Source: Deltaproteobacteria bacterium HGW-Deltaproteobacteria-18
Lineage (GTDB): Bacteria; Desulfobacterota; Desulfovibrionia; Desulfovibrionales; Desulfomicrobiaceae
Reading direction: 5' to 3'
Length of the DNA: 64,000 nucleotides
NCBI GenBank assembly: GCA_002841885.1
Contig: PHBE01000002.1
Location: 248,001-312,000, forward strand
In this document: positions 5,285 through 64,000 of the stretch, piece after piece
How the letters are laid out: each line of letters opens with the position of its first letter
Numbering within the stretch: the first letter of the stretch is position 1
Notes under the pieces: model-generated
The model's database searches: none
What the model was told of the DNA's origin: nothing
The model's input: only the letters and a program-made list of their open reading frames with translations
Position numbers and translations under genes: made by a program

Positions 5285-6424
5285 TTAGTTCAAGACCTTC
5301 CAGGTGCCGTTCTCGATGGTGACCATTATGAACGCGGACTCGTCGAGGCCGTTATGGTTATCGGGCGAATAGGTGTACACTCCCGAGGTACCCGCAAAGC
5401 CTGAAATCTTCTCCAGGTTGCCGCGGATATCGGCGGATTTGGCGGAACCGCCCTTGGAGATGGCTTCCATAACCAGAGCGAAGGCATCGTGGGCATAGCC
5501 GCCGAAAGACGAGACCTGGGTGCCGTAGGTTTTGGTGTATCCAGCCACATAGGCTTCAAGCGCCGCCTTCTGGGGATGATCGGCCGGGACCTGATCCACT
5601 GCCACCAACCGCCCGGCGGGCAGGACAAGCCCTTCGGCGGCTTCCCCGGCAAGCTCGATGAACTTGTTCGAGGCCACGCCGTGGCTCATGTACAGAGGCA
5701 CGGTCAGACCGAGCTGCACGCGGTTGCGCGCAACCACTGCCGGGCCGGGATTGGTGCCCCAGCAAATGATGGCATCGGCGCCAGAGCCCTTGATCTTGGT
5801 CAGCTGCGCGGTCATGTCCGTGTCCTTGGGCCCGTATACCTCATCGGCGGCAAGCTCGAATCCCTGCGCGGGGATGAGTTCCTTCAGGACGTTGCGACCG
5901 GCCTGGCCGTAGCCGTCGGAGACGGTCAGAATGGCGAGCCGCGAATACCCCTTGGCCTTGGCGTCCAGGAGAATTCTGGTCACGGCGTGGCGATCAAGCT
6001 GCGGCGTATTGAACACCCACGGATCGACAGGGCGCACGATCTTCTCTGCGGCTGCGCAAGAAACCAGCGGAACCTCGGCGGAAGAAAAAAACTTGGAAAT
6101 GGCCAGGGTATTGCCAGAAATGCTGGGCCCGATAACTACGGCCACCTGGTCCTGATCGAGCAGCTTCTTGGCGGCCATGACGCACTTGTTGACGTCGGAT
6201 TCGTCGTCGTAAACGATGACTTCGAGCATCTGCCCGTTCACCCCGCCGGCTGCGTTGAGTTGGTCCTGGAGCATGATCAGCGTGTTTTTTTCGGGCTCGC
6301 CCAAAAAGGACGCCGGACCGGTCACGGAAAGAATGGCGCCTATCTTGATGGCATCGGCCGCAAAGGCGGGAACACTCGCAAGCAGATACACTGCAAGCAC
6401 AACGATACATTTCGCCACTTTCAT
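5285..6424 (-). CDS. livK: Periplasmic branched-chain amino acid-binding protein
   Basis: A 379-residue type I periplasmic binding protein delivering substrate to LivHMGF. A Sec signal peptide is visible (MKVAKCIVVLAVYLLAS, cleavage probably after AFA, about residue 22). The mature protein begins with the family pattern DAIKIGAILSVTGPASFLGEPEK and contains KKLLDQDQVAVVIGPSISG. As the first gene of the operon it probably has the main promoter upstream (6425-6569). Ligand may be leucine/isoleucine/valine or an aromatic amino acid, given the linked PaaK-type ligase; sequence alone does not decide. Confidence 0.9.
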   Translation of the reverse strand: MKVAKCIVVLAVYLLASVPAFAADAIKIGAILSVTGPASFLGEPEKNTLIMLQDQLNAAGGVNGQMLEVIVYDDESDVNKCVMAAKKLLDQDQVAVVIGPSISGNTLAISKFFSSAEVPLVSCAAAEKIVRPVDPWVFNTPQLDRHAVTRILLDAKAKGYSRLAILTVSDGYGQAGRNVLKELIPAQGFELAADEVYGPKDTDMTAQLTKIKGSGADAIICWGTNPGPAVVARNRVQLGLTVPLYMSHGVASNKFIELAGEAAEGLVLPAGRLVAVDQVPADHPQKAALEAYVAGYTKTYGTQVSSFGGYAHDAFALVMEAISKGGSAKSADIRGNLEKISGFAGTSGVYTYSPDNHNGLDESAFIMVTIENGTWKVLN

Positions 6425-6569
6425 GGAACCCTCCGAAAATTTTGATGAAAAAAACGAAAAAAAAGCCTATCGAACGATAATCGATAACTTGATCGCACAG
6501 CAGTGTCAATTCATGGACTTTTCGAAGGCCACAGGGGTCCCAGAAGACCTATCCGCCCGCCCAAAAACA

Positions 6570-6603
6570 AAAAGCCCATCATGCAGCATCATGATGGGCT
6601 TTT
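6570..6603 (-). terminator. Intrinsic terminator of rpsT
   Basis: A perfect 14-bp stem (6570-6583 with 6590-6603, core AGCCCATCATG) with 6-nt loop and flanking A/T runs lies just downstream of rpsT on the minus strand. Confidence 0.85.
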
Positions 6604-6629
6604 ATTTCTGAATTGAAAGCGTAGAGTGA

Positions 6630-6890
6630 CTAGATTTTGTTCGAGGCCACGGAGAGCCTGGAAATCTTTCTGGCTGCTGTACGCCAGTGTACAATCTTCT
6701 TGCTCGCGGCCTTGTCCAGAATGGCGGTGACGTTCTTCAGGGCAGTTGTGACAGCTTCGGTGTCTTTGGACTCGATGGCTGCATGCAAAGCCTTTGTGGC
6801 ATTCTTCACCCGAGTTTTCATCATTCTGTTGCGCTCACGGGCCTTCAGGCTCTGGCGGTGTCTCTTCAGGGCAGACTTGTGATTGGCCAA
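6630..6890 (-). CDS. rpsT: 30S ribosomal protein S20
   Basis: An 86-residue basic protein binding 16S rRNA in the small subunit. The N-terminus ANHKSALKRHRQSLKARERN is diagnostic of S20. I place the start at a TTG codon (6890), because the family begins M-ANHKSA and an AAGGAG ribosome-binding site sits about 7 nt upstream of the TTG; an in-frame ATG at 6908 overlaps that site and would add an unsupported hexapeptide. S20 genes often use UUG starts for autoregulation, so the weak start may be functional. It has its own terminator downstream. Confidence 0.95.
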   Translation of the reverse strand: MANHKSALKRHRQSLKARERNRMMKTRVKNATKALHAAIESKDTEAVTTALKNVTAILDKAASKKIVHWRTAARKISRLSVASNKI

Positions 6891-6997
6891 AATATAACTC
6901 CTTCTCAAATTAAACGCGTGTTTCTATCAGCATCAAGATGCCTCTGCAATCTGGCGTCATTAGCTGAAGCGTTCGGGCGCTGTCAAGCTTTCATAGC

Positions 6998-9079
6998 CTA
7001 GACTTGGAATTTTCCAAAATCCGCGATGCGCCCCAGGGTGTTGACCAGTCGATAAAGCAAATTCAAGCGATTGGCACGCAGTCCGGGATCTTCGCACATG
7101 ACCATGACCCCGTCGAAGAATTCGTCCACGGCCGGGCGCAGCACCCTCAGACGGGACAGCATGTTCGGATAGTCCGCCGTCGCCGCCAGTTCGACCCAAA
7201 CAGGCTCGATCCCCTGCAGCGTGGCCCAAAACGATTTCTCCGCATCGACCTCAAGAAGGTCCTCGCGCACCACGCCCGAAAGATCCTGATCGGCCTGCTT
7301 ACGGATGATGTTCGCCGCACGTTTGAAGGTCAGCACCGAAGCTTCGAAATCATCTTCGCGGCTGAATTCCGCCAGGGCGTTCACACGCAGCCAGGTATCG
7401 TGAATGTCGGCAAAACCGGGAGCCATGGCCGCCTCCAGCACCAGGGTCGGAACACCCTGGCCGTTCCAGTAGGCGCGCAGGCGCTGCCCGAAGAAATCCA
7501 TGAGCTTTTCCAGGGCCTCGTCCTCGCCGAACTTCCAGTTTACTCCGGCATAACCCTGCTGAGCCTGGCGCAGCAGGACCGAGATATCGACCTTGAGTCC
7601 CAATTCCAGAATGATGCGGCACGCGCCAAGGGCGTTGCGGCGCAGCGCGTACGGGTCGGCAGCACCCGTGGGCATCATGCCCAGGCCAAAGCACCCGGCA
7701 AGGTTATCGAGCTTGTCGGCCAGAGACAGGATGGCGCCGGCCATGCTTGAAGGCAAATCCGAATCCTGCCCCGCAGGAAGGTACTGATCGTAGAGAGCCT
7801 GGGCCACGACCTCGCTCTCCCCCTTGAGACGGGCGTAGATGCCGCCCATCTTGCCCTGCAGGTCATCGAATTCGTAAACCATCTCCGAAACCAGATCGGC
7901 TTTGGAGAGGCGTCCCGCGCGGGCCATGGCGTCCTGCAGCTCGGGAGCGACGCTTGACGCGATGAAGGAACAGAGCTTTTCAAGCCTGCGGGTCTTTTCG
8001 CCCATGGTGCCCAGAGGCCCGATGAAGATGACCCTGTCCAGCTTGTCCAGCCAGTGATCGAAGGTCGCGGCGCAGTCGGCCTCCCAGAAAAAGCGGGCGT
8101 CCTCCAGGCGGGCGCGAAGCACCCTCTCCCAGCCCTTGCGCACAAGTGCCGGTTCGCGGGACTCGATGTTGGCGGCGGTCAAAAAATACGGCAGCAGCTT
8201 TCCGTCCGCACCGCGCAGGCCAAAGCTTTTCTGATGCGTCTCCATGCTGGTCAGCAGGACCTCGGCCGGAAGCTCAAGAAATTTTTCATGAAACCCGCCG
8301 AGCATGGCGCGAGGCGTCTCGACCAGATTGGCGACCTGATCGAGCAGGGACTGCGACCACTCGACGCTGCCGCCCACTTCGTCGGCAAGCCTGTCGCCCT
8401 CGGCCTTGATGGCATGCTTGCGGTCGGCGGCGTCCAGGATGACCTTGCCCTCTTCGGCAAGAATCCGGGCGTAATCGTCGGCATGAGACACCGCGAAGGG
8501 CCCAGGACCCATGACCCGGTGCCCCCTGGTCTGGCTGGAAGCCGTGAGGCCGGCAAAGTCGAAAGGAACAACATCACTGTCCAACATGGCCAAAATCCAG
8601 CGCACCGGGCGCCCAAAGGTGCATTCCTTGCCCATCCACTGCATTTTCTTGGGAAAAGTCAGATTCGGCAGAATCGCCCGGCAGGCTTCGGACAGGATCT
8701 CGACTGCAGTTCGCCCTCCCACGGTTTTCTTCAGGGCCAGATACTCGCCCTTGTCCGTCTTTTCCACGTAGATCCGCTCGAAATCCACGTCCTGGGACTT
8801 GGCGAATCCCAGTCCGGCCTTGGTCGGATTGCCATCGGCGTCGAAGGCGATGCGCGCCGGAGGGCCCGATACCACTATCTCCTCGGTCTTCTGCATGTCG
8901 GCCAGGCCTGAGATATCGACCACCAGCCGCCTCGGGGTTGATGCCGTGGCGACGCGGCCGTATTCCAGGCCCGTCTCGGACAGATGGGCCACAAAACGAT
9001 CCGCCAGTTCCCGGTCCAGAAGGGGCAGGAAACGCGCCGGCATTTCCTCCACACCGATTTCAAGAACAAAATGCCTCAT
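6998..9079 (-). CDS. glyS: Glycyl-tRNA synthetase, beta subunit
   Basis: A 693-residue beta subunit of the bacterial alpha2beta2 glycyl-tRNA synthetase; it binds tRNA(Gly) and supports the catalytic alpha subunit. The N-terminus FVLEIGVEEMPARFLPLL and internal FPKKMQWMGKECTFGRPVRW and YLPAGQDSDLPSSMAGAILS are conserved GlyS blocks; the C-terminal part resembles a DALR/anticodon-binding domain. It lies 40 bp downstream of glyQ in the same orientation. Length is normal for the family (about 690). Confidence 0.97.
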   Translation of the reverse strand: MRHFVLEIGVEEMPARFLPLLDRELADRFVAHLSETGLEYGRVATASTPRRLVVDISGLADMQKTEEIVVSGPPARIAFDADGNPTKAGLGFAKSQDVDFERIYVEKTDKGEYLALKKTVGGRTAVEILSEACRAILPNLTFPKKMQWMGKECTFGRPVRWILAMLDSDVVPFDFAGLTASSQTRGHRVMGPGPFAVSHADDYARILAEEGKVILDAADRKHAIKAEGDRLADEVGGSVEWSQSLLDQVANLVETPRAMLGGFHEKFLELPAEVLLTSMETHQKSFGLRGADGKLLPYFLTAANIESREPALVRKGWERVLRARLEDARFFWEADCAATFDHWLDKLDRVIFIGPLGTMGEKTRRLEKLCSFIASSVAPELQDAMARAGRLSKADLVSEMVYEFDDLQGKMGGIYARLKGESEVVAQALYDQYLPAGQDSDLPSSMAGAILSLADKLDNLAGCFGLGMMPTGAADPYALRRNALGACRIILELGLKVDISVLLRQAQQGYAGVNWKFGEDEALEKLMDFFGQRLRAYWNGQGVPTLVLEAAMAPGFADIHDTWLRVNALAEFSREDDFEASVLTFKRAANIIRKQADQDLSGVVREDLLEVDAEKSFWATLQGIEPVWVELAATADYPNMLSRLRVLRPAVDEFFDGVMVMCEDPGLRANRLNLLYRLVNTLGRIADFGKFQV

Positions 9080-55546: not shown

Positions 55547-57208
55547 CTACTTCCCGGCCATCATGGCGGCGATGTCGTCCTGCACCGTGCCGATGGGCTT
55601 GATGTCGAAGTTCTCCACCAGCACGTTGGCAACGGCAGGTGACAGAAAGCCCGGCAGTGTGGGCCCGAGACGGATGCCCTTCACGCCCAGGGCCAGGAGG
55701 GCCAGCAGCACGGCCACGGCCTTCTGCTCGTACCAGGCAATGTCGTAGGACACGGGCAGGTCGTTGATGTCGTCGAGGCCGAAAACCTCTTTGAGCTTCA
55801 GCGCGATGACGGCCAGGGAATAAGAATCGTTGCATTGTCCGGCATCGAGCACGCGCGGGATACCGCCGATGTCGCCCAGGTCCAGCTTGTTATAGCGAAA
55901 CTTGGCGCAACCCGCCGTCAGGATGATGGTATCCTTCGGCAGATTCTGGGCCACCTCGGTGTAATAGCCGCGCGACTTCTGCCGTCCGTCGCAACCGGCC
56001 ATGACCACGAACCGTTTGATGGCCCCGGATTTCACGGCTTCAACCACCTTGTCGGCCAGGGCCAGGACCTGATGGTGCGCAAAGCCGCCGACGATGGTGC
56101 CGGTCTCGATCTCCGTGGGCGGCGGGCACTTCCTGGCCTGGGCGATCATGGCCGAAAAGTTCTTGGCTCCGCCCTCCGGACGCTCGGGGATGTGCGTTGC
56201 GCCTTCGTAACCGACCACGCCAGTGGTATAGAGCCGATCGAGATAGGTGTTGTCTTTCTTGAGCGGCACCAGGCAGTTGGTGGTCAGCAGAATGGGGCCG
56301 TTAAAGGATTCGAATTCGGTGTTCTGCTCCCACCAGGAGCCGCCGTAGTTGCCGATGAAGTGGCTGAACTTCTTGAAGGCCGGATAGTAGTTGGCCGGGA
56401 GCATCTCGCCGTGGGTGTAGACGTCCACGCCCATGCCCTCGGTCTGCTTCAGGAGCTCTTCCATGTCCTTCAAGTCATGGCCGCTGATCAGAATGCCTGG
56501 GTTCTTGCCCACGCCGATGTTGACCGTGGTGATCTCGGGATTGCCGTAGGTCGTGGTGTTGGCCTCGTCCAGGAGGGCCATGGTGGTCACCGCCATGTTC
56601 CCGGCCTTCAGGACCAGGGCGACCATCTCGTCCACGGACAGGTTCTTGGTGGTGGAGGCCAGGGCTTCGAGCATGAAATCATCGATCTCGGACTTGCGAA
56701 AGCCCAGCACCGCCGCATGTTCGGCATAGGCGGCAATGCCTTTGAGGCCGATGATCAGCAGCTCGCGCAGGGAGCGCACGTCCTCGTTTTCCGTGGCCAG
56801 GATGCCCACGCTCCTGGCCTTTTCGGCAAAACCGGCAGAGTCTCCTTTCCAGGTCGCGGCTTCGGGCAGCGGATCGGCGAAGTCCTGGCCGTGTCTGGCC
56901 TTGTACGCGGCCAGGAATGCATTTTTCAGCTTGTCGCGCCGAGCCAGGGCGTCCTGGATCAAAGCCACGAACCGGGAGTCGTCCCAGTTGGCGTTGGTGA
57001 TGGTGGCGAAAAGCGCCTGCAGTACGAAATCGTCATTGGAGCGGTCCGCCTGGCCCAGTTCCTTGAGCCTTTCGCCATAAACGGCAATGCCGCGCAACAC
57101 GAAAATGAGCAGATCCTGCAGATTGGCGGTTTCTTCCGGTTTGCCGCACATGCCCTTGACCGTGCAGCCCGTATTCTTGGCCGTTTCCTGACACTGGAAG
57201 CAAAACAT
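55547..57208 (-). CDS. hcp: Hydroxylamine reductase / hybrid-cluster protein
   Basis: A 553-residue cytoplasmic Fe-S protein (prismane protein) involved in NO/hydroxylamine detoxification. The N-terminal cubane cysteines are Cys3, Cys6, Cys15 and Cys21 ([13 protein letters not shown]...CGK). Hybrid-cluster ligands are found in [15 protein letters not shown]-type block, [19 protein letters not shown] and [19 protein letters not shown]. Start at ATG 57208 with AAGGAGG. It is 66 bp downstream of the flavodiiron gene on the same strand, the usual nitrosative-stress pair of sulfate reducers. Confidence 0.96.
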
Positions 57209-57274
57209 AATGACCTCCTTTGAATCACCGTTTCTGGTCGTGCGACAACGCACCCCTCAAACCAATCACAAAAA

Positions 57275-58456
57275 TCAATCTTGAAAGCCACTCTCCCGAT
57301 GTCTGGCGGCAATGGCGTCCGCCAGGCGGTCCAAGGCGCCGAATGTGTCGTCCTTGGGCAAACCCTTGCACAGCACAGGCTCAAGCACCTCGACCTTCAG
57401 GTTGGGTATCATGCCGGCCAAGGTTTCCACGGTCTTGCCGCCCCACCCGTATGAGCCGATTATGGACAGATATCTGGCCTTGGGCCGCAAGGCGTTGGCC
57501 AGGAACGCGGCGTAGGCGGCCAGAGGGTGCGGCCCGGCAAGCACCGTGGGAGTTCCGAGCACTATGGTGCCAGCATCGACCAGGGACATGGCCAGCTTGC
57601 CGATATCGGTCACTGCCAGGTTGAAGAGCTCCACCCGCACCTCGCGTTCGGACAGGGCCGCCGTCAGATGGTCGACCATGAGCCGCGTGCTGCCGTGCAT
57701 GGAGACAAAGGCAAAGGCCACCAGATTGTGCGCCGCGCCCGAAACCCAGTCCCTGTAGGCGTCAACGATCCAGCCGGGACTGTCGTAGATCTGGCCGTGG
57801 CTGGGGGCGATCATGCGGATGTCATGGGGACTCAGTTTTTCCAGGTTTTTGGCGATGATGCTCCGATAAGGCATCATGATCTCCCCGAAATACCGTTTGG
57901 CTGCTTCATGCACCCGGCCCTGGTCACGCACGAAGAGGTCGCTGGTTGCGATGTGCGAGCCGAAAAAATCGCAACTGAACAGAATCTTGTCTTCGGCCAG
58001 ATAGGTGGACATGGTTTCCGGCCAGTGCACCCAGGGCGTGAGAATGAAGGTCAGCGTCTTGTCGCCAAGGGAGAGGGTTTCGCCATCGCCGACAACGATG
58101 AATTTCTCCTCGGGGATGAGCAAAAGGTCCATGAGCATGGACTTGGCCTTGGCGTTGGTGACGACCTTGGCTTCCGGGTAGAGGTCCAGCACCAGGGCGA
58201 TGGTCCCGGAATGATCCTGCTCGGCATGCTGGGAAATGACATAGTCGAGCTTTTCCACGCCCTCCAGATGCCCGAGCAGGACATCGACCATGTCCGGATC
58301 AACGGCATCGATGAGCGCGGTCTTCTCGCTGCCTTCCACGAGGTAGGCGTTATAGGTTGTCCCATCGGGGAGCGGAACCAGGGAATCAAAAAGCCGCCTG
58401 TCCCAATCCACGGCGCCCATCCAGAAAACACCGTCAGTAATTTTTTTCGTATGCAT
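57275..58456 (-). CDS. FprA-type flavodiiron protein (NO/O2 reductase)
   Basis: A 393-residue A-type flavoprotein. The beta-lactamase-like diiron domain has His77, Glu79, Asp81, His82 (QHAEQDHSG), His144 (TPWVHWPETM) and Asp163; the flavodoxin domain starts near residue 250 (VAFAFVSMHGSTRL). It reduces O2 to water or NO to N2O using rubredoxin. With hcp, NO defence is likely. The ATG at 58456 was chosen because MHTKKITDGVFWMG aligns from there and AAGGAC lies upstream. Confidence 0.93.
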   Translation of the reverse strand: MHTKKITDGVFWMGAVDWDRRLFDSLVPLPDGTTYNAYLVEGSEKTALIDAVDPDMVDVLLGHLEGVEKLDYVISQHAEQDHSGTIALVLDLYPEAKVVTNAKAKSMLMDLLLIPEEKFIVVGDGETLSLGDKTLTFILTPWVHWPETMSTYLAEDKILFSCDFFGSHIATSDLFVRDQGRVHEAAKRYFGEIMMPYRSIIAKNLEKLSPHDIRMIAPSHGQIYDSPGWIVDAYRDWVSGAAHNLVAFAFVSMHGSTRLMVDHLTAALSEREVRVELFNLAVTDIGKLAMSLVDAGTIVLGTPTVLAGPHPLAAYAAFLANALRPKARYLSIIGSYGWGGKTVETLAGMIPNLKVEVLEPVLCKGLPKDDTFGALDRLADAIAARHRESGFQD

Positions 58457-58481
58457 CGCAGAGTCCTTTTCCTGTTGTTGT

Positions 58482-58498
58482 GTTGCAGCGCTTGCAAC
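58482..58498. promoter_or_regulatory. Palindrome upstream of fprA-hcp
   Basis: GTTGCA-N5-TGCAAC, a perfect 6-bp inverted repeat (with central AGCGC on the gene strand), lies 26 bp before the flavodiiron ATG. A second palindrome TGAAGCTTCA (58500-58509) abuts it. This is CRP/FNR-like in form but I cannot match it to a known HcpR site from memory. Confidence 0.45.
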
Positions 58499-58535
58499 CT
58501 GAAGCTTCAAGCCATCGAGTCATGGCTCGTCCGCG

Positions 58536-59070
58536 TTAGAACCAAAATTCCGGATAACGCCTGCCCTTGGGGATGTTGTTGACCACCAGGGCCACCAGAA
58601 GCAGAAGCACCGCCCCCAGCCCCGCCGGAACCAGGGCGTACATGTACAAGGCTGTGCACCGAATCTCCGCCGATGACCGCGATCAGCGCCGTGGCTCCGC
58701 CAGGCGGGTACAGGGTCCTGGCCAGGTGCATGGCCGCGATGGCCGTGGCCACGGCCATCGCGGCGGCCAGCCAAGGCGTCGCGCCGAGAACCTAGTGTGC
58801 GCATACACCAATCAAAGCGGAAAGAACATGTCCGCCGAGCACATTTCTCGGTTTGGCCAGAGGACTGCGGACAGCCCCGTAAACCAGCACCGCCGTTGCC
58901 CCGAAAGATCCGATGAGCAAGGCCTGTCCGGCCTGGTCGACCAACCGCGCGTGAACGAGCCCCACAAGGGCGATGCCGATCACCGCGCCGACCCAGGACC
59001 ATAGCACCTCCGAGACGGACACCCGGGGCGGGCTTTGCGTCGTACCGCGCATTTTCCTGAAATATTCCAT
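58536..59070 (-). pseudogene. HPP-family membrane protein, disrupted by stop codon and frameshift
   Basis: The minus strand from 59070 encodes an HPP-type sequence (SEVLWSWVGAVIGIALVGLV; GSFGATAVLVYGAVRSPLAK; PRNVLGGHVLSALIGVCAH) to a TAG at 58792-58794. The same frame then continues as VLGATPWLAAAMAVATAIAA and MHLARTLYPPGGATALIAVI. Near 58647 a one-base insertion (or two-base loss) moves the rest, YMYALVPAGLGAVLLLLVAL and VVNNIPKGRRYPEFWF, to another frame ending at TAA 58536. Two separate lesions make a functional product unlikely. HPP proteins have been linked to nitrite transport in plastids; neighbouring hcp-fprA makes that suggestive only. Confidence 0.85.
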
Positions 59071-59073
59071 GGC

Positions 59074-59301
59074 CTACCTCCCGCACATGGCGCCGACAAG
59101 GTCGGTCCTGGTCACGATGCCGACGGGACGCCCCTCATGGTCGCAGATGGGCAGGCTTTTGATGGAATCCAATCCTGTGTTCAAGCAATGTCTATCCCGG
59201 AAGATTGCCTGAAACAAAGACATCATATCATTATTTTCGATCAGTTGGTAACACATCCATCCACTATCCCGATTTGCATCCCCCCCGCGTTTCCAGCACA
59301 T
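59074..59301 (-). pseudogene. CBS-domain remnant
   Basis: A 75-codon open frame ends with IKSLPICDHEGRPVGIVTRT and DLVGAMCGR, the second half of a CBS motif, while its N-terminal half lacks CBS pattern. It stops 3 bp before the HPP pseudogene. It looks like the 3' remainder of a larger CBS gene whose front was lost, in keeping with decay of this locus. Confidence 0.6.
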
Positions 59302-59330
59302 AAGGGAAAATTATTCTTCCGGAGGTAATG

Positions 59331-60608
59331 ATGACGCAGGAAGCTTATCGTGAAATGTGGGAAAATCTGAATCTGGATATCGCGGCCCATGACGGGCTTT
59401 TGGGCGTACTCGGCAAATTTTACGGCGACATCTACATGAGCCAGCAGGGTCGGCTCAAAGGGATGGAGTATCTCGATTTTGTTCTCTCGGAAGTGCACGG
59501 GCTGCGCATCAAGGAACTGCAGGACGCCAAGGCCCAGGGACGCAAGATCATCGGGACGTTCTGCGTTTTCGTGCCCGAGGAACTGGCCCTGGCCCTGGAC
59601 GCCGTGCAGGTCGGCCTGTGCGCCGGAGCCGACTCGGGCAAGGAAGCGGCCGAAACCCTGGTGCCGCGCAACACCTGCGCGCTGATCAAGTCCTTCATCG
59701 GGTTCAAGCTGGCCAGGCTGTGTCCCTACACCGAGTCCTGCGACCTGATCGTCGGGGAAACCACCTGTGACGGCAAGAAAAAGGCCTACGAGGCCTTTGC
59801 CGAGCACGCGCCCATGTACGTCATGGAAGTGCCCCAGACCAAGTCCCCTGCCGCCCGCGCCCTGTGGAAAGAGGAAATGCTGCGCTACATGGCCAAACTT
59901 GAGGATCTGACCGGCAAGAAAGTCACCGCCGAAAAACTGGCCGAAGCCATCAAGACCGTCAACGCCCGCCGCCGCGCCCTACAGCGCCTGAACAGGCTGC
60001 GCGCGAGCGTGCCCGCGCCCATCTCCGGCCGCGATGTGCTGCTCATCAACCAGGTCAGCTTCTACGATGATCCGGTCCGCTTCACCGCATCCATAAACAC
60101 CCTGTGCGACCAGCTCGAAGAGCGCATCAAGGCCGGAGAAGGCGTGGCACCCAAGGACGCCCCCCGGCTCATGCTCTCGGGCTGTCCCATGGCCGTGCCC
60201 AACTGGAAACTGCCCTACGTCATCGAAAGCTCCGGAGCGGTCATCGTCGGCGAGGAATCGTGCATCGGCACCCGCAACACCCGCGATCTGGTCGATGAGT
60301 CCGCCGGGACCCTGGAGGAAATGCTCGACGCCCTGGCCGACCGCTACATGAAAATCGACTGCGCCTGTTTCACGCCCAATGACGAGCGTCTGGAAAACGT
60401 CGAAGCCATGGCCTCGGACCTCAAAGTCGACGGGGTCATCCAGTACGCCCTCATGTTCTGCCAGCCCTACGCCCATGAAGGCATCAAGGTGGAAAAGCGG
60501 CTGACTGCGGCCAGCATCCCGAGCATGTCTTTGGAGACGGATTATTCCATGGAAGACGTGGAACAGCTCAAGACCCGCGTCGAGGCCTTCCTGGAAACCG
60601 TGAAATGA
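59331..60608 (+). CDS. 2-hydroxyacyl-CoA dehydratase-like double-cubane cluster protein (DCCP-like)
   Basis: A 425-residue soluble protein of the HgdB/BcrC superfamily. Conserved cysteine blocks are TFCVFVPEELALALDAVQVG, LVPRNTCALIKSFIGFKLAR, LCPYTESCDLIVGETTCDGK, LMLSGCPMAVPNW and GEESCIGTRNT. A stand-alone single-chain protein paired with one ASKHA activator corresponds to DCCP/YjiM, which carries an [Fe8S9] double-cubane and reduces small molecules such as acetylene or hydrazine in vitro. Its physiological substrate is unknown. Two adjacent ATGs follow GGAGG; 59331 has the better spacing (59328 alternative). It overlaps its activator by 4 nt. Confidence 0.85.
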   Translation: MTQEAYREMWENLNLDIAAHDGLLGVLGKFYGDIYMSQQGRLKGMEYLDFVLSEVHGLRIKELQDAKAQGRKIIGTFCVFVPEELALALDAVQVGLCAGADSGKEAAETLVPRNTCALIKSFIGFKLARLCPYTESCDLIVGETTCDGKKKAYEAFAEHAPMYVMEVPQTKSPAARALWKEEMLRYMAKLEDLTGKKVTAEKLAEAIKTVNARRRALQRLNRLRASVPAPISGRDVLLINQVSFYDDPVRFTASINTLCDQLEERIKAGEGVAPKDAPRLMLSGCPMAVPNWKLPYVIESSGAVIVGEESCIGTRNTRDLVDESAGTLEEMLDALADRYMKIDCACFTPNDERLENVEAMASDLKVDGVIQYALMFCQPYAHEGIKVEKRLTAASIPSMSLETDYSMEDVEQLKTRVEAFLETVK

Positions 60609-61381
60609 CGGTCCTGGGCATCGACATCGGCTCCCGTTCTATTGAAATCGTGGCCATGGCTCAGGGCAAGGTGGTGGAAAAGCGGCAGGCTCCCACCACC
60701 TTCAACCCGGTGGCGCAGCTGCTGGCGCTCCTTGACGGCCTTCATGCCAGGCGGGCCGTGGCCACGGGCTACGGCCGCAAGCTGGTGCAGGACCTGGACC
60801 TGAACTTTCCGGTCGAGACCATCACCGAAATAAAGGCCCACGGGCTGGGCGCGCACCATCTGTTCCCCCAGGGCCGGACCGTGCTCGACATCGGCGGCCA
60901 GGACACCAAGGCCCTGTCCCTTTTGCCCAGCGGCCGGGTCGGCAAGTTCGAAATGAATGATCGCTGTGCGGCGGGGACGGGGAAATTCCTGGAATACACG
61001 GCCCAGATCTTCCAGATCCCGGTCCAGGAATTCGGAGCCTATGCCCTCGGCGGCGACAAACCTCCCATCATCAACTCCATGTGCACGGTCTTCGCCGAGA
61101 CCGAGGCCACATCCCTCATGGCCCAGGGCGTGCGCCCCGAGAACATCGCCCTTGGCCTGCACCTCTCCATCGCCCGGCGCACGGCCAACATGCTGAGCCG
61201 CGTGGGCCTCACCCTGCCGCTCATCTTTGTCGGCGGCGTGGCCCACAACCCGTGCATGCGCCAGCTGCTCTCCGAACAGGCCGGCGCCGTCATAGGCGAA
61301 ACCCTGTTCATCCCGGAAGAACCGGACATGACCGGGGCTCTGGGCGCGGCGCTGTGGGCCGAAACATTGGATTCAGACTGA
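60605..61381 (+). CDS. ASKHA-family activator ATPase (YjiL/HgdC-type; DCCP reductase)
   Basis: A 258-residue ATPase that uses ATP-driven conformational change to pass a low-potential electron to the double-cubane protein. GIDIGSRSIEIVAM and LDIGGQDTKAL are the nucleotide-binding phosphate loops; Cys121 (NDRCAAGTGKFLE) and Cys160 (INSMCTVFAETEA), 39 residues apart as in HgdC, should bridge a [4Fe-4S] cluster between two monomers. Start ATG 60605 overlaps the upstream stop (ATGA). The pair forms a self-contained operon with terminator at 61411. Confidence 0.92.
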   Translation: MTVLGIDIGSRSIEIVAMAQGKVVEKRQAPTTFNPVAQLLALLDGLHARRAVATGYGRKLVQDLDLNFPVETITEIKAHGLGAHHLFPQGRTVLDIGGQDTKALSLLPSGRVGKFEMNDRCAAGTGKFLEYTAQIFQIPVQEFGAYALGGDKPPIINSMCTVFAETEATSLMAQGVRPENIALGLHLSIARRTANMLSRVGLTLPLIFVGGVAHNPCMRQLLSEQAGAVIGETLFIPEEPDMTGALGAALWAETLDSD

Positions 61382-61410
61382 CCGGATCTGCAAAACGATC
61401 ATCATGACCG

Positions 61411-61441
61411 ACCGGGGCCAGGCAATGGCTCCGGTTTTTTT
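61411..61441 (+). terminator. Intrinsic terminator of the double-cubane operon
   Basis: Stem ACCGGGGCCA / TGGCTCCGGT (one mismatch) with GGCAA loop and T7 lies 30 bp after the activator stop. Confidence 0.85.
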
Positions 61442-61868: not shown

Positions 61869-62645
61869 CTAGAATTCTCCAGCCGCGACCACTTCCTCTT
61901 CCAGCATATCAAGTATTCGTGCCGTCATTCGGGCGTACTCGGGATTGCTGCGGTCCCGCGGATGTTCAAGCCCGACATCGATCACTTCACGGATTCTGCC
62001 CGGCCGGGCCGTCATGACCACGATGCGGTCGGCCAAATATACGGCCTCGTCCACGCTGTGGGTGACCAGGATCACCGTCTTCCTCGTCTCCCGCCAGATG
62101 CGCAGCAGCTCTTTTTGCATGAGGATGCGCGTGTGCGCGTCAAGAGCGCCAAAGGGTTCGTCCATGAGCAGGACCTGCGGGTCCGTGGCCAGGGCCCGCG
62201 CAATGGCCACCCGCTGCCGCATGCCCCCTGACAGTTCGTAGGGAAAGGCTTCGGCAAACCGGGTCATCCCCACCAGGCCGAGATAATGCATGGCAATTTC
62301 GATCCGCGCCGCCTTTTTTTCCTGCAGGAACTCAAGCCCCAGGCAAACATTGTCGCGCACGGTGCGCCAGGGTAAAACCGAATATTCCTGAAAAACCATG
62401 CCCACATCCCGGTGAGGACGGTCCAGCGGGCGATCATTGTAAGTGGTCTGTCCGCCGTCGGCCCGCTCCAGGCCGGAAATGATCCGCAGCAATGTAGATT
62501 TGCCGCATCCCGATGGCCCGACAATGCACACGAACTCGCCACGGCCAATCTGCAGGCTTGCCTTTTCAAGTGCGGCAATAGCCAGTCCGCGTTCGGTTAA
62601 GAAGGATTTGCTCACTTCGCGGACATGCACAATATGGTTCATCAA
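61869..62645 (-). CDS. ABC transporter ATP-binding protein (SsuB/TauB/NrtD type)
   Basis: A 258-residue ATPase for import of an anionic compound (nitrate, sulfonate, taurine, cyanate or similar). Walker A GPSGCGKST, Q-loop MVFQEYSVLPWRTVRDNVCL, signature LSGGMRQRVAIARAL and Walker B VLLMDEPFGALDAHTR are intact. It starts directly (1 nt) after the permease stop. The group is used for nitrate/sulfonate/pyrimidine-precursor uptake; substrate specificity is set by the binding protein, which is cut by the window end. Confidence 0.92.
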   Translation of the reverse strand: MMNHIVHVREVSKSFLTERGLAIAALEKASLQIGRGEFVCIVGPSGCGKSTLLRIISGLERADGGQTTYNDRPLDRPHRDVGMVFQEYSVLPWRTVRDNVCLGLEFLQEKKAARIEIAMHYLGLVGMTRFAEAFPYELSGGMRQRVAIARALATDPQVLLMDEPFGALDAHTRILMQKELLRIWRETRKTVILVTHSVDEAVYLADRIVVMTARPGRIREVIDVGLEHPRDRSNPEYARMTARILDMLEEEVVAAGEF

Positions 62646-63485
62646 TTACCTCGCAAGCCGCTGCCACGAAAAGCATCTGCGTTCAATCCGCCTGAAAAGC
62701 CAATCCATGAGCGCTCCGGTCAGCCCGATGCTGAACATTCCGGCGACCACAATATCCGTCGAAGCCATGGTGTAGGCGTGGGTGATCAGATATCCGACTC
62801 CCGAGATGCTTCCGGGAAGCATTTCAGCCGAGACCAGGCACATCCAGGCCACGCCCAGGCCGATGCGCATGCCGTTGACCATGGACGGCAAGGCCGCCGG
62901 AAGCAGAATCTTGCGGAAAATATCAAACTCGCCGGCGCCGAGGACGCGAGCAGTGTCGATGAAGACACGATTTACATTTCGCACGCCGTGGATGCTGCTG
63001 GTCAGCACCGGATAGAAGGCGCCGATAAAAATGATGAATATCATCGAATACTTGAAATTATTGAGATAAACAAACCACAGTCCGCGATCCACCCCGAAGA
63101 GATCCGCGAAGCTCGCGATTCCGAACCAGGCCATGACCAGGGGAACCCAGGCCAGAGGCGGAATGGGGCGAAAGAGATTCAGGAAGTCTCCGAACATGGT
63201 GTGCACCGATACGTAGTATCCCATGGCGATGCCCAGCGGAATCGCGACAAGAACGGCCACGATATAGCCGATCAGCACTCTGAACAGGCTGACCACGACA
63301 TTGGTGATCAGGGAACCCATGCTCAGCAGGTCTTCGTTCGGGTGAAACAGCAGTTCGGCGACATCTCCCACCGTGGGCAGGATGACCTTGTTTCCGATCA
63401 GCAGTGCAGCCCACGACCAGATGGCAAGAAAGGCGAGAACAGTCGCCAAGGAAAGAATCCGGTGAAAAGAGCTGTGCATTGTCAA
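62646..63485 (-). CDS. ABC transporter permease (SsuC/TauC type)
   Basis: A 279-residue integral membrane protein with about six TMs and the EAA-type loop (DTARVLGAGEFDIFRKILLP). FRPIPPLAWVPLVMAWFGIA and GLGVAWMCLVSAEMLPGSIS are SsuC/TauC-family signatures. It lies between the binding-protein and ATPase genes in a minus-strand operon. Confidence 0.92.
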   Translation of the reverse strand: MTMHSSFHRILSLATVLAFLAIWSWAALLIGNKVILPTVGDVAELLFHPNEDLLSMGSLITNVVVSLFRVLIGYIVAVLVAIPLGIAMGYYVSVHTMFGDFLNLFRPIPPLAWVPLVMAWFGIASFADLFGVDRGLWFVYLNNFKYSMIFIIFIGAFYPVLTSSIHGVRNVNRVFIDTARVLGAGEFDIFRKILLPAALPSMVNGMRIGLGVAWMCLVSAEMLPGSISGVGYLITHAYTMASTDIVVAGMFSIGLTGALMDWLFRRIERRCFSWQRLAR

Positions 63486-63533
63486 TTCCGGGGCAACCGC
63501 CGACTCCCCTCCCTGGGGAGTCGGCGGCTCGTG

Positions 63534-64000
63534 TTAATTTTTGTTCAGGAAGCTGAAATCAAAGAGTTTGTCTTCGACTTCGGCGAGGCTTTTGCCTTTG
63601 AGTTCGCCCCGGAACTTGTTCATGGAATTGAGGATTTCAAGATAGGTGGCCTGACCGTTCATCCAGTTCTTGGATGGTTCGGTGGTGTAGACGATGGTGG
63701 ATTTCTGCACCGCTTCAGCCGGGGACCCCGTCCAACCGGCAAGAATCTGACCTTCCTCGGCCTTGTGATCGTTGCACCATTGACCGGACCTGCTCAAAAG
63801 CTCGACCGTCTTGCGCAGAACCTCGGGATGTTCGGCGATAACCGCATCCCGGGCCGCCATGACGCAGCAGGGGAAATTGTGCCAGGCTCCGGCCGGGGGC
63901 AGGTCTCGCAGATCAAGGGCGATATGCCCGACCTTCTTGAGTTCCGAGACTTCGGGATGCGGCGCGGGTCCGACCCAGGCATCGACCTGACCGCTGGTCA
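63534..64000 (-). CDS. ABC transporter substrate-binding protein, 3' part (N-terminus outside window)
   Basis: The frame is open to the window end and encodes the last 154 residues: SGQVDAWVGPAPHPEVSEL, GAWHNFPCCVMAARDAVIAE and VYTTEPSKNWMNGQATYLEI. This is the C-terminal lobe of a NMT1/SsuA-type binding protein. The pattern GQVDAW in the first lines is the usual ligand-binding crossover segment. It is the first visible gene of the uptake operon. Ligand unknown; the signal sequence is beyond the edge. Confidence 0.85.
   Translation of the reverse strand, partial: TSGQVDAWVGPAPHPEVSELKKVGHIALDLRDLPPAGAWHNFPCCVMAARDAVIAEHPEVLRKTVELLSRSGQWCNDHKAEEGQILAGWTGSPAEAVQKSTIVYTTEPSKNWMNGQATYLEILNSMNKFRGELKGKSLAEVEDKLFDFSFLNKN

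Follow-up and report, generated by a model that had tools for sequence, protein, structure and literature searches.

The rare, nitrogenase-like double-cubane cluster is found in the double-cubane cluster protein (DCCP) of structures 6ENO and 7YYL, which we take to be that of Carboxydothermus hydrogenoformans, where it works with one activator, the DCCP reductase (DCCP-R). A comparable pair of genes lies in a 64,000-nucleotide stretch of DNA from Deltaproteobacteria bacterium HGW-Deltaproteobacteria-18, a sulfate reducer of the order Desulfovibrionales and family Desulfomicrobiaceae. This whole stretch is referred to here as the window, and corresponds to C2:248001-312000 of the host genome (handle G000). 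The pair occupies window positions 59328-61381, and an operon encoding an ABC importer and a second DCCP converges on it; both are considered here in relation to a proposed role in anaerobic selenium supply. Among related proteins, BzdN (class I benzoyl-CoA reductase) and HadC (2-hydroxyacyl-CoA dehydratase) belong to the common family PF06050, but both act with a second, different subunit, whereas YjiM and YjiL of E. coli form an equal two-gene system.

The available text of one report calls the biological role of DCCPs unknown and describes BzdN as holding an [8Fe-9S] cluster through six cysteines (PMC11971306). A provisional hint at selenium is already in print, as far as the accessible portions of three papers go. 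One places DCCP among the genes of type I mlp clusters and calls it 'provisionally linked' to selenium (PMC10418091); another treats YedE, YedF and DUF3343 as genes of selenium use and has a STRING table in which these stand with an activase and a 2-hydroxyglutaryl-CoA dehydratase subunit (PMC5322559); and the third describes an E. coli co-expression module comprising ynjXYZABCD, yedEF, yjiLM and ynjE, whose activity is higher under anoxia and which its authors propose for the use of Mo and Se (PMC7888660). Other excerpts concern regulation: a table of the ygfI study places yjiM, yjiL and ynjE with the hyc and hyp genes (PMC9068703), yjiML appears in an FNR regulon list (PMC3688515), and DCCP and its reductase, whose unit includes a LysR-like gene, have been seen to drop in response to CO (PMC7306483). 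As regards transport, the text available from two papers gives no dedicated or high-affinity selenium transporter as known (PMC11097638, PMC9312934). The literature search, which had the primary papers on DCCP and on the selenocysteine-assisted organometal (SAO) operons outside its reach, found neither a conserved DCCP-importer cassette with an invariant cysteine pair nor near-strict counts of DCCP with selD.

The first gene of the pair, DCCP1 (59328-60608, plus strand; 426 amino acids), was recognised as an open reading frame (ORF), by the NCBIfam model NF040772 and by phmmer. It scores 488.6 bits against NF040772, the 'double-cubane-cluster-containing anaerobic reductase' (cut-off 350), which places it within the family, and matches 7yyl_C over residues 8-426 (E 4.6e-140) and 6eno_A (E 1.3e-139). 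A GGAGG stretch resembling a ribosome-binding site precedes it, and an alternative ATG at 59331 agrees with the start given in the first-pass annotation. The second gene (60605-61381, plus strand; 258 amino acids; TIGR00241, PF01869 and phmmer) encodes the DCCP reductase or activator, a BadF/BadG-type ATPase, and overlaps the first by 4 bp. Its score against TIGR00241, the acyl-CoA dehydratase activase, is 201.6 bits (cut-off 125.4), and its phmmer matches are HgdC-type activators together with 7yyl_E, the chain solved together with DCCP. The annotation of a two-gene DCCP/DCCP-R unit thus holds. Cysteines were located at positions 121, 160 and 217 of the activator, in agreement with the Cys121/Cys160 of that annotation, the pair that we take, from the HgdC family, to be the two cluster cysteines. 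The operon had also been described as self-terminated, and a terminator-like hairpin (61410-61436, plus strand; 11-pair stem, 5-nt loop, T run) does follow it as a pattern; since the 6.5 kb scanned held 10 such sites against 6.6 (sd 2.5) in shuffled sequence, this hairpin draws its support from its position and its 11-pair stem. The scan reported no promoter-like site before the operon.

The assignment to the double-cubane class was borne out when the cysteines were aligned, using the window protein, the corresponding chain parts of the C. hydrogenoformans DCCP, BzdN and HadC, and 94 DCCP sequences from fetched loci. Six cysteines of DCCP1 (C79, C117, C147, C312, C345 and C378) are common with BzdN and aligned also with the C. 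hydrogenoformans protein, and each is kept in 94/94 DCCP rows; HadC has other residues at the positions aligned to C79 and C312. By their number and alignment these six are probably the cluster ligands, and by analogy with the solved DCCP the window protein may be expected to be a homodimer holding a double-cubane cluster. The single-[4Fe-4S] cysteine pattern, which the first-pass annotation had named as evidence that would tell against it, is not what was found, since the window protein has the six BzdN-type cysteines and HadC is without two of them. No second, different dehydratase subunit is adjacent, HgdA/BzdO-type models not having been run genome-wide, and in the host genome only two NF040772 matches were obtained at E <= 0.001. 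The E. coli counterpart YjiM has all six cluster cysteines as well; it is 36-38% identical to the two DCCPs here, and the 12 kb around yjiML hold no ABC importer.

The second of those two matches, DCCP2, lies at C2:312693-313793 on the minus strand, about 700 bp beyond the window edge. The minus-strand run has the order DCCP2, substrate-binding protein (SBP), permease and ATPase, and converges on the DCCP1-activator operon. The difference from the C. hydrogenoformans system consists of a shorter second DCCP and an importer adjoining the pair, together with the selenium role proposed. The last genes of this operon fill window positions 61869-64000: the C-terminal part of the SBP, with its invariant Cys-Cys pair (63534-64000; PF13379/PF09084), the permease (62646-63485; PF00528) and, as last gene, the ATPase (61869-62645; PF00005), all on the minus strand. 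In the coordinates of stretch L003 the whole SBP ORF, which extends past the window, runs from 5535 to 6821, with its conserved part reaching to about 6692, and DCCP2, the next gene after it outside the window, from 6685 to 7854.

The importer resembles, in fold and in the Pfam class of its SBP, the SsuABC, TauABC and NrtABC systems, but differs from them in the Cys-Cys pair and in the low identity of about 13-17% to the solved members listed. It is also like the importer of the SAO operons, an SsuABC-type importer with cysteine-rich parts. Membership of the SAO, Ssu, Tau or Nrt groups was considered and set aside, every model shown having scored under its cut-off: the ATPase fell below all 25 NCBIfam models shown (the best being SaoA, 242.8 of 360), the permease is SaoP-like at 161.6 of 295 bits, and the two NCBIfam matches of the SBP were SaoX (37.9 of 300) and SsuA_fam (53.9 of 163.5 bits). 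No SaoB match was found for the window importer, nor are SaoC, SaoE or SaoT named beside it.

The SBP belongs to the NMT1/SsuA/NrtA class (PF13379/PF09084), and an AlphaFold2 model of its homologue from L085 has a mean pLDDT of 89.7. The solved structures listed as closest in fold are of proteins of the nitrate, taurine, sulfonate, bicarbonate and Thi5 types. The vicinal Cys-Cys is invariant, both in 39/39 called ORFs and in all 34 sequences of alignment A2, which covers 34 of 46 SBP loci (L117, with a stop codon, L111, which has none, and ten short, redundant or partial sequences were left out). Selenocysteine at the pair was considered and rejected, TGC/TGT codons being present in 42/44 loci, with ACC for L065 in alignment A1 and a fragment for L067. 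In alignments with structures of the Protein Data Bank (PDB), the Staphylococcus aureus protein 3UN6, which has zinc in its title, shows Cys-Cys at the aligned place, and Thi13/Thi5 a cysteine-rich stretch. Judged from the pair, the SBP ligand would be thiophilic.

The DCCP of the window belongs clearly to a known family, and its association with this importer is conserved. Among the 247 genomes sampled from the host order, with thresholds of E <= 1e-60 for DCCP and E <= 1e-20 for the SBP, DCCP was present in 136 genomes (134 over cut-off) and the SBP in 43; DCCP occurs in 43/43 SBP genomes, as against 93/204 of the rest. A DCCP lies on the fetched stretch at 37/44 SBP places, at 36 of them within 5 kb; the nearest DCCP is on the SBP strand at 36 places, with a median gap of 74 bp, and the DCCP-linked places span 13 of the 14 genera having SBP. 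Within the genus sample DCCP was found in 14/16 genomes. Moreover, a scan of genome_contigs with SBP alignment A1 and one peptide pattern gave 46 loci, whose titles name Desulfovibrionales, other deltaproteobacterial groups and Bacillota, with DCCP at 30 of them; 12 of the 46 overlap the order sample, and the 34 non-overlapping loci have DCCP in 19. When genomes behind SBP loci were searched, 25/25 gave a DCCP match (23 over cut-off, 2 partial). In a sample of 299 Bacillota genomes the SBP was present in 15, 14 of them with DCCP.

Gene order differs among loci, DCCP standing before, after or divergent from the importer. On a tree of 124 different DCCPs (68 near an SBP, 50 not, and 6 ungrouped, either because they lie too close to the end of a contig or, in one case, as E. 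coli YjiM), the state of having an SBP neighbour takes 22 changes, at least 14 of them forced by starred branches, as compared with 38 in shuffles; the tree was built by a quick method, carries a long-branch warning and has a sampling biased to SBP loci. Clustering of the ORFs of 43 order loci (42 genomes), with a simple gene caller that misses some genes, gave cassette families reaching 12-14 genera and the activator reaching 6. A further conserved partner was sought among the next families and rejected, these reaching only 4 genera (by eye PstC-/PstS-like proteins, a regulator and one antisense ORF).

Some individual loci of the cassette deserve a separate record. On a Syntrophus contig (L129, 2298-6131) three consecutive DCCP genes follow the importer, with YedE downstream. 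A DUF1847 protein comes directly after the importer ATPase, with no DCCP adjacent, at L099:11472-12119 and L126:12961-13587, and is a candidate extra partner. Behind the importer of Sporomusa ovata (L114, 9959-16539) stand a gene resembling that of a binding protein, genes for a 4Fe-4S membrane protein and for a radical SAM protein, and a match to YedE; the radical SAM genes of L058, L059 and L060, where the importer is also without nearby DCCP, cluster with the one of L114.

A physiological role is suggested by a near-strict co-occurrence with the selenium trait, observed in two samples in counts that are uncorrected for phylogeny or strict anaerobiosis. The host itself carries the trait: selD at C23:27995-28912, YedF at C2:123060-123665 and selB at C22:285-2174. 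In the Bacillota sample, which is centred on a genome picked for having the SBP, selD is present in 92/93 DCCP genomes as compared with 112/206 without DCCP, and in all 15 SBP genomes. The same comparison made with Hcp gives selD in 159/217 Hcp genomes against 45/82 without; among Hcp-positive Bacillota alone, selD occurs in 83/83 genomes with DCCP and 76/134 without it. In the order, selD accompanies DCCP in 130/136 genomes, as against 86/111 of those without DCCP, and the SBP in 40/43. Seven DCCP genomes gave no selD match (six in the order, and G441 in the Bacillota); of these, YedF was over cut-off in 7/7 and SelB over cut-off in 6/7. G015, a 510-contig draft, had neither selD nor SelB matched, and in G441 the YedF match begins about 70 bp after the DCCP match. 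Among 14 control genomes DCCP and selD were positive in the same two, E. coli and M. jannaschii, and Hcp in four.

Furthermore, selenium genes are physically linked to DCCP or to the importer in some lineages. In the same genus, L032 (G009) has selD, with an in-frame TGA and 339.6 bits (cut-off 125), directly after the importer ATPase, and the cassette locus L024 (G001) carries YedE, which is over the TIGR04112 cut-off there as well as near DCCP in L129 and L170. In L108 a YedF gene over the TIGR03527 cut-off separates DCCP from the SBP, in L115 another comes immediately behind the ATPase, and a Se/S-carrier gene (PF11823) adjoins DCCP in L168. As a separate observation, in one genus of the order (L180, L181 and L182) DCCP1 and selD are divergently arranged some 245 bp from each other, and the search of the stretch showed no activator.

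On these grounds we lean, with somewhat better than even confidence, towards the DCCP1-activator pair and the convergent importer operon forming a module for anaerobic selenium supply, in which ATP-driven reduction would feed SelD. The periplasmic SBP would capture a thiophilic selenium species through its vicinal cysteine pair, and the permease and ATPase would import it. The activator would hydrolyse ATP and drive single low-potential electrons into the double-cubane cluster, and DCCP would then reduce a selenium compound, either imported or bound to a thiol, to selenide (the candidates being zero-valent Se, a perselenide, an organoselenide and a Se oxyanion), for conversion to selenophosphate by SelD. 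DCCP1 and DCCP2 would be served by the one activator seen here and would presumably act on the same substrate. By a hand calculation the Se(0)/HSe- couple has a potential of about -0.7 V at pH 7, more negative than that of ferredoxin, which would give a reason for using an ATP-driven donor.

Several points weigh against this proposal. No biochemistry links DCCP or the importer to selenium, and the substrates given for DCCP in vitro, in the available text of PMC11971306, are acetylene, hydrazine and azide. In M. maripaludis, according to the portions of PMC11097638 at hand, selenium uptake was not clearly affected when yedE and four other transporter loci were deleted, and the paper's main text mentions no dehydratase-type gene. 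The fold of the SBP is of the nitrate/sulfonate/bicarbonate binder type, which does not name selenium, and E. coli YnjB, tried as an SBP homologue, was discarded, with no BLAST match at 1e-3 and no Cys-Cys. Nor is the cassette universal: DCCP lies within 4 kb of the SBP in only 7/15 Bacillota SBP genomes, and none was shown at 7/44 order loci and 16/46 genome_contigs loci, several of them at contig ends. In two same-genus genomes, G002 and G012, DCCP1 and its activator are present with neither DCCP2 nor SBP matched, so the two-gene unit can stand alone; the earlier description of the pair as stand-alone applies to these two genomes, but not to the host, where the importer operon with its own DCCP runs towards the pair. 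In addition, 3/43 SBP genomes of the order are without a selD match, and selD occurs without DCCP in 112 Bacillota and 86 order genomes, so that DCCP is at most an accessory to the selenium trait. YedE, YedF or selD was found by tblastn on the fetched stretch at 6/44 order loci only (L024, L032, L034, L051, L056 and L057), and L180-L187 were chosen because selD is near; the linkages are therefore illustrations and not rates. To these must be added the lack of correction in the co-occurrence counts and the centring of the Bacillota sample, both given above.

The main rival, unlikely though we judge it, is organometal or metalloid handling, in which the importer and DCCP would act on an organometal, arsenic or a similar compound, as proposed for the SAO systems, with selenium genes following because such systems often use selenocysteine proteins; the two roles could amount to one chemistry viewed from different angles. 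Sao models were applied, beyond the window importer, at L063, L070, L103 and L170 only, and SAO operons proved contiguous with DCCP and activator in the last three. At L070:8928-16296, in the same order, DCCP and activator are contiguous with SaoA, SaoB, SaoX, SaoC, SaoE and SaoT over their cut-offs, and with SaoP just under (275.1 of 295). In Sporotomaculum syntrophicum (L103:9905-20352) the Cys-Cys importer, DCCP, activator and Sao genes (SaoX, SaoB, SaoC, SaoE and SaoA over cut-off) form one run of about 10 kb. L170 has SaoT, SaoE, SaoX, SaoB and SaoA, with YedE and a selD match nearby, and L063 has SaoB near DCCP. Two Bacillota genomes have arsenic genes at a distance of several kb from a DCCP, an ACR3 over cut-off with an ArsC-like gene at L171:249-1840, and an ArsR family member over cut-off with ACR3 and ArsC-like pieces under cut-off at L167:8490-14405; they therefore count for the metalloid reading, and so against selenium supply. 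The invariant cysteine pair, with its counterpart in 3UN6, would also suit a thiophilic metal. Nevertheless, the window transporter scores too low for the SaoA, SaoP and SaoX models and gave no match to SaoB, and selD, YedE, YedF or a Se/S carrier lies near many DCCPs, a comparison that is no fair count because metal-resistance genes were not searched equally.

We give still less credence to a role in the salvage of methyl-selenide or methyl-sulfide, in which DCCP would work with corrinoid methyltransferases, for instance in reductive C-Se cleavage. On L160:3428-13937 three DCCPs occur together with genes for a corrinoid protein, for MtaA-like methyltransferases and for an AcsV-like activase, and with a Sec lyase-like member of the cysteine desulfurase family; the presence of DCCP in mlp clusters and its provisional link to selenium, cited above, point the same way, but ORF clustering in the order found no corrinoid gene family among the recurrent neighbours of the cassette. 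The L160 stretch itself is mlp-cluster-like, and a DCCP activator was not recognised there.

It is improbable, in our view, that DCCP, the importer and selD share only a lifestyle, as markers of strict anaerobes without a common pathway. The uncorrected counts would fit such a reading, as would the named hosts of the genome_contigs SBP loci, which we take to be anaerobes. However, the selD contrast stays within Hcp-positive Bacillota, and the physical linkage to selD, YedE or YedF recurs in several lineages. The co-expression of yjiLM with yedEF in E. coli, in the available text of PMC7888660, also argues against it.

Upstream of DCCP1 the window has hcp (55547-57253, minus strand) and an FprA-like gene (57275-58510, minus strand), which lie 0.8-3.8 kb from it. 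An HPP-family membrane gene (58507-59301, minus strand), which has a CBS piece immediately upstream of it, is disrupted by a frameshift and an in-frame stop; in the same-genus genomes of L068 and L069 a homologous HPP piece stands upstream of the DCCP1 gene. The neighbours named in the first-pass annotation are thus all present, but the nitrogen substrate guessed from hcp-fprA does not find a conserved context: on the 60 stretches L024-L083, covering about 3-9 kb from DCCP, hcp matched only in L068 and L069, of the same genus, and L077 (45% identity), and among the 46 SBP loci only in L104. A reduced-nitrogen chemistry tied to hcp-fprA (azide, hydrazine, hydroxylamine or an NO-derived substrate) is accordingly very improbable, despite that proximity and the reduction of hydrazine and azide in vitro (PMC11971306, available text), because hcp is near DCCP almost only within the genus and DCCP goes with Hcp in Bacillota (83/93 genomes with DCCP, 134/206 without) much more weakly than with selD.

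Returning to selenium supply, its most specific form, in which DCCP is an ATP-driven selenium reductase making selenide for SelD and the Cys-Cys importer a dedicated selenium uptake system, is advanced here tentatively, and with rather less than even confidence. If true, it would give a natural function to an orphan nitrogenase-like metalloenzyme and provide the first dedicated selenium transporter, and the questions of DCCP function and of selenium transport would become testable together, both in E. coli (yjiLM) and in the host genus.

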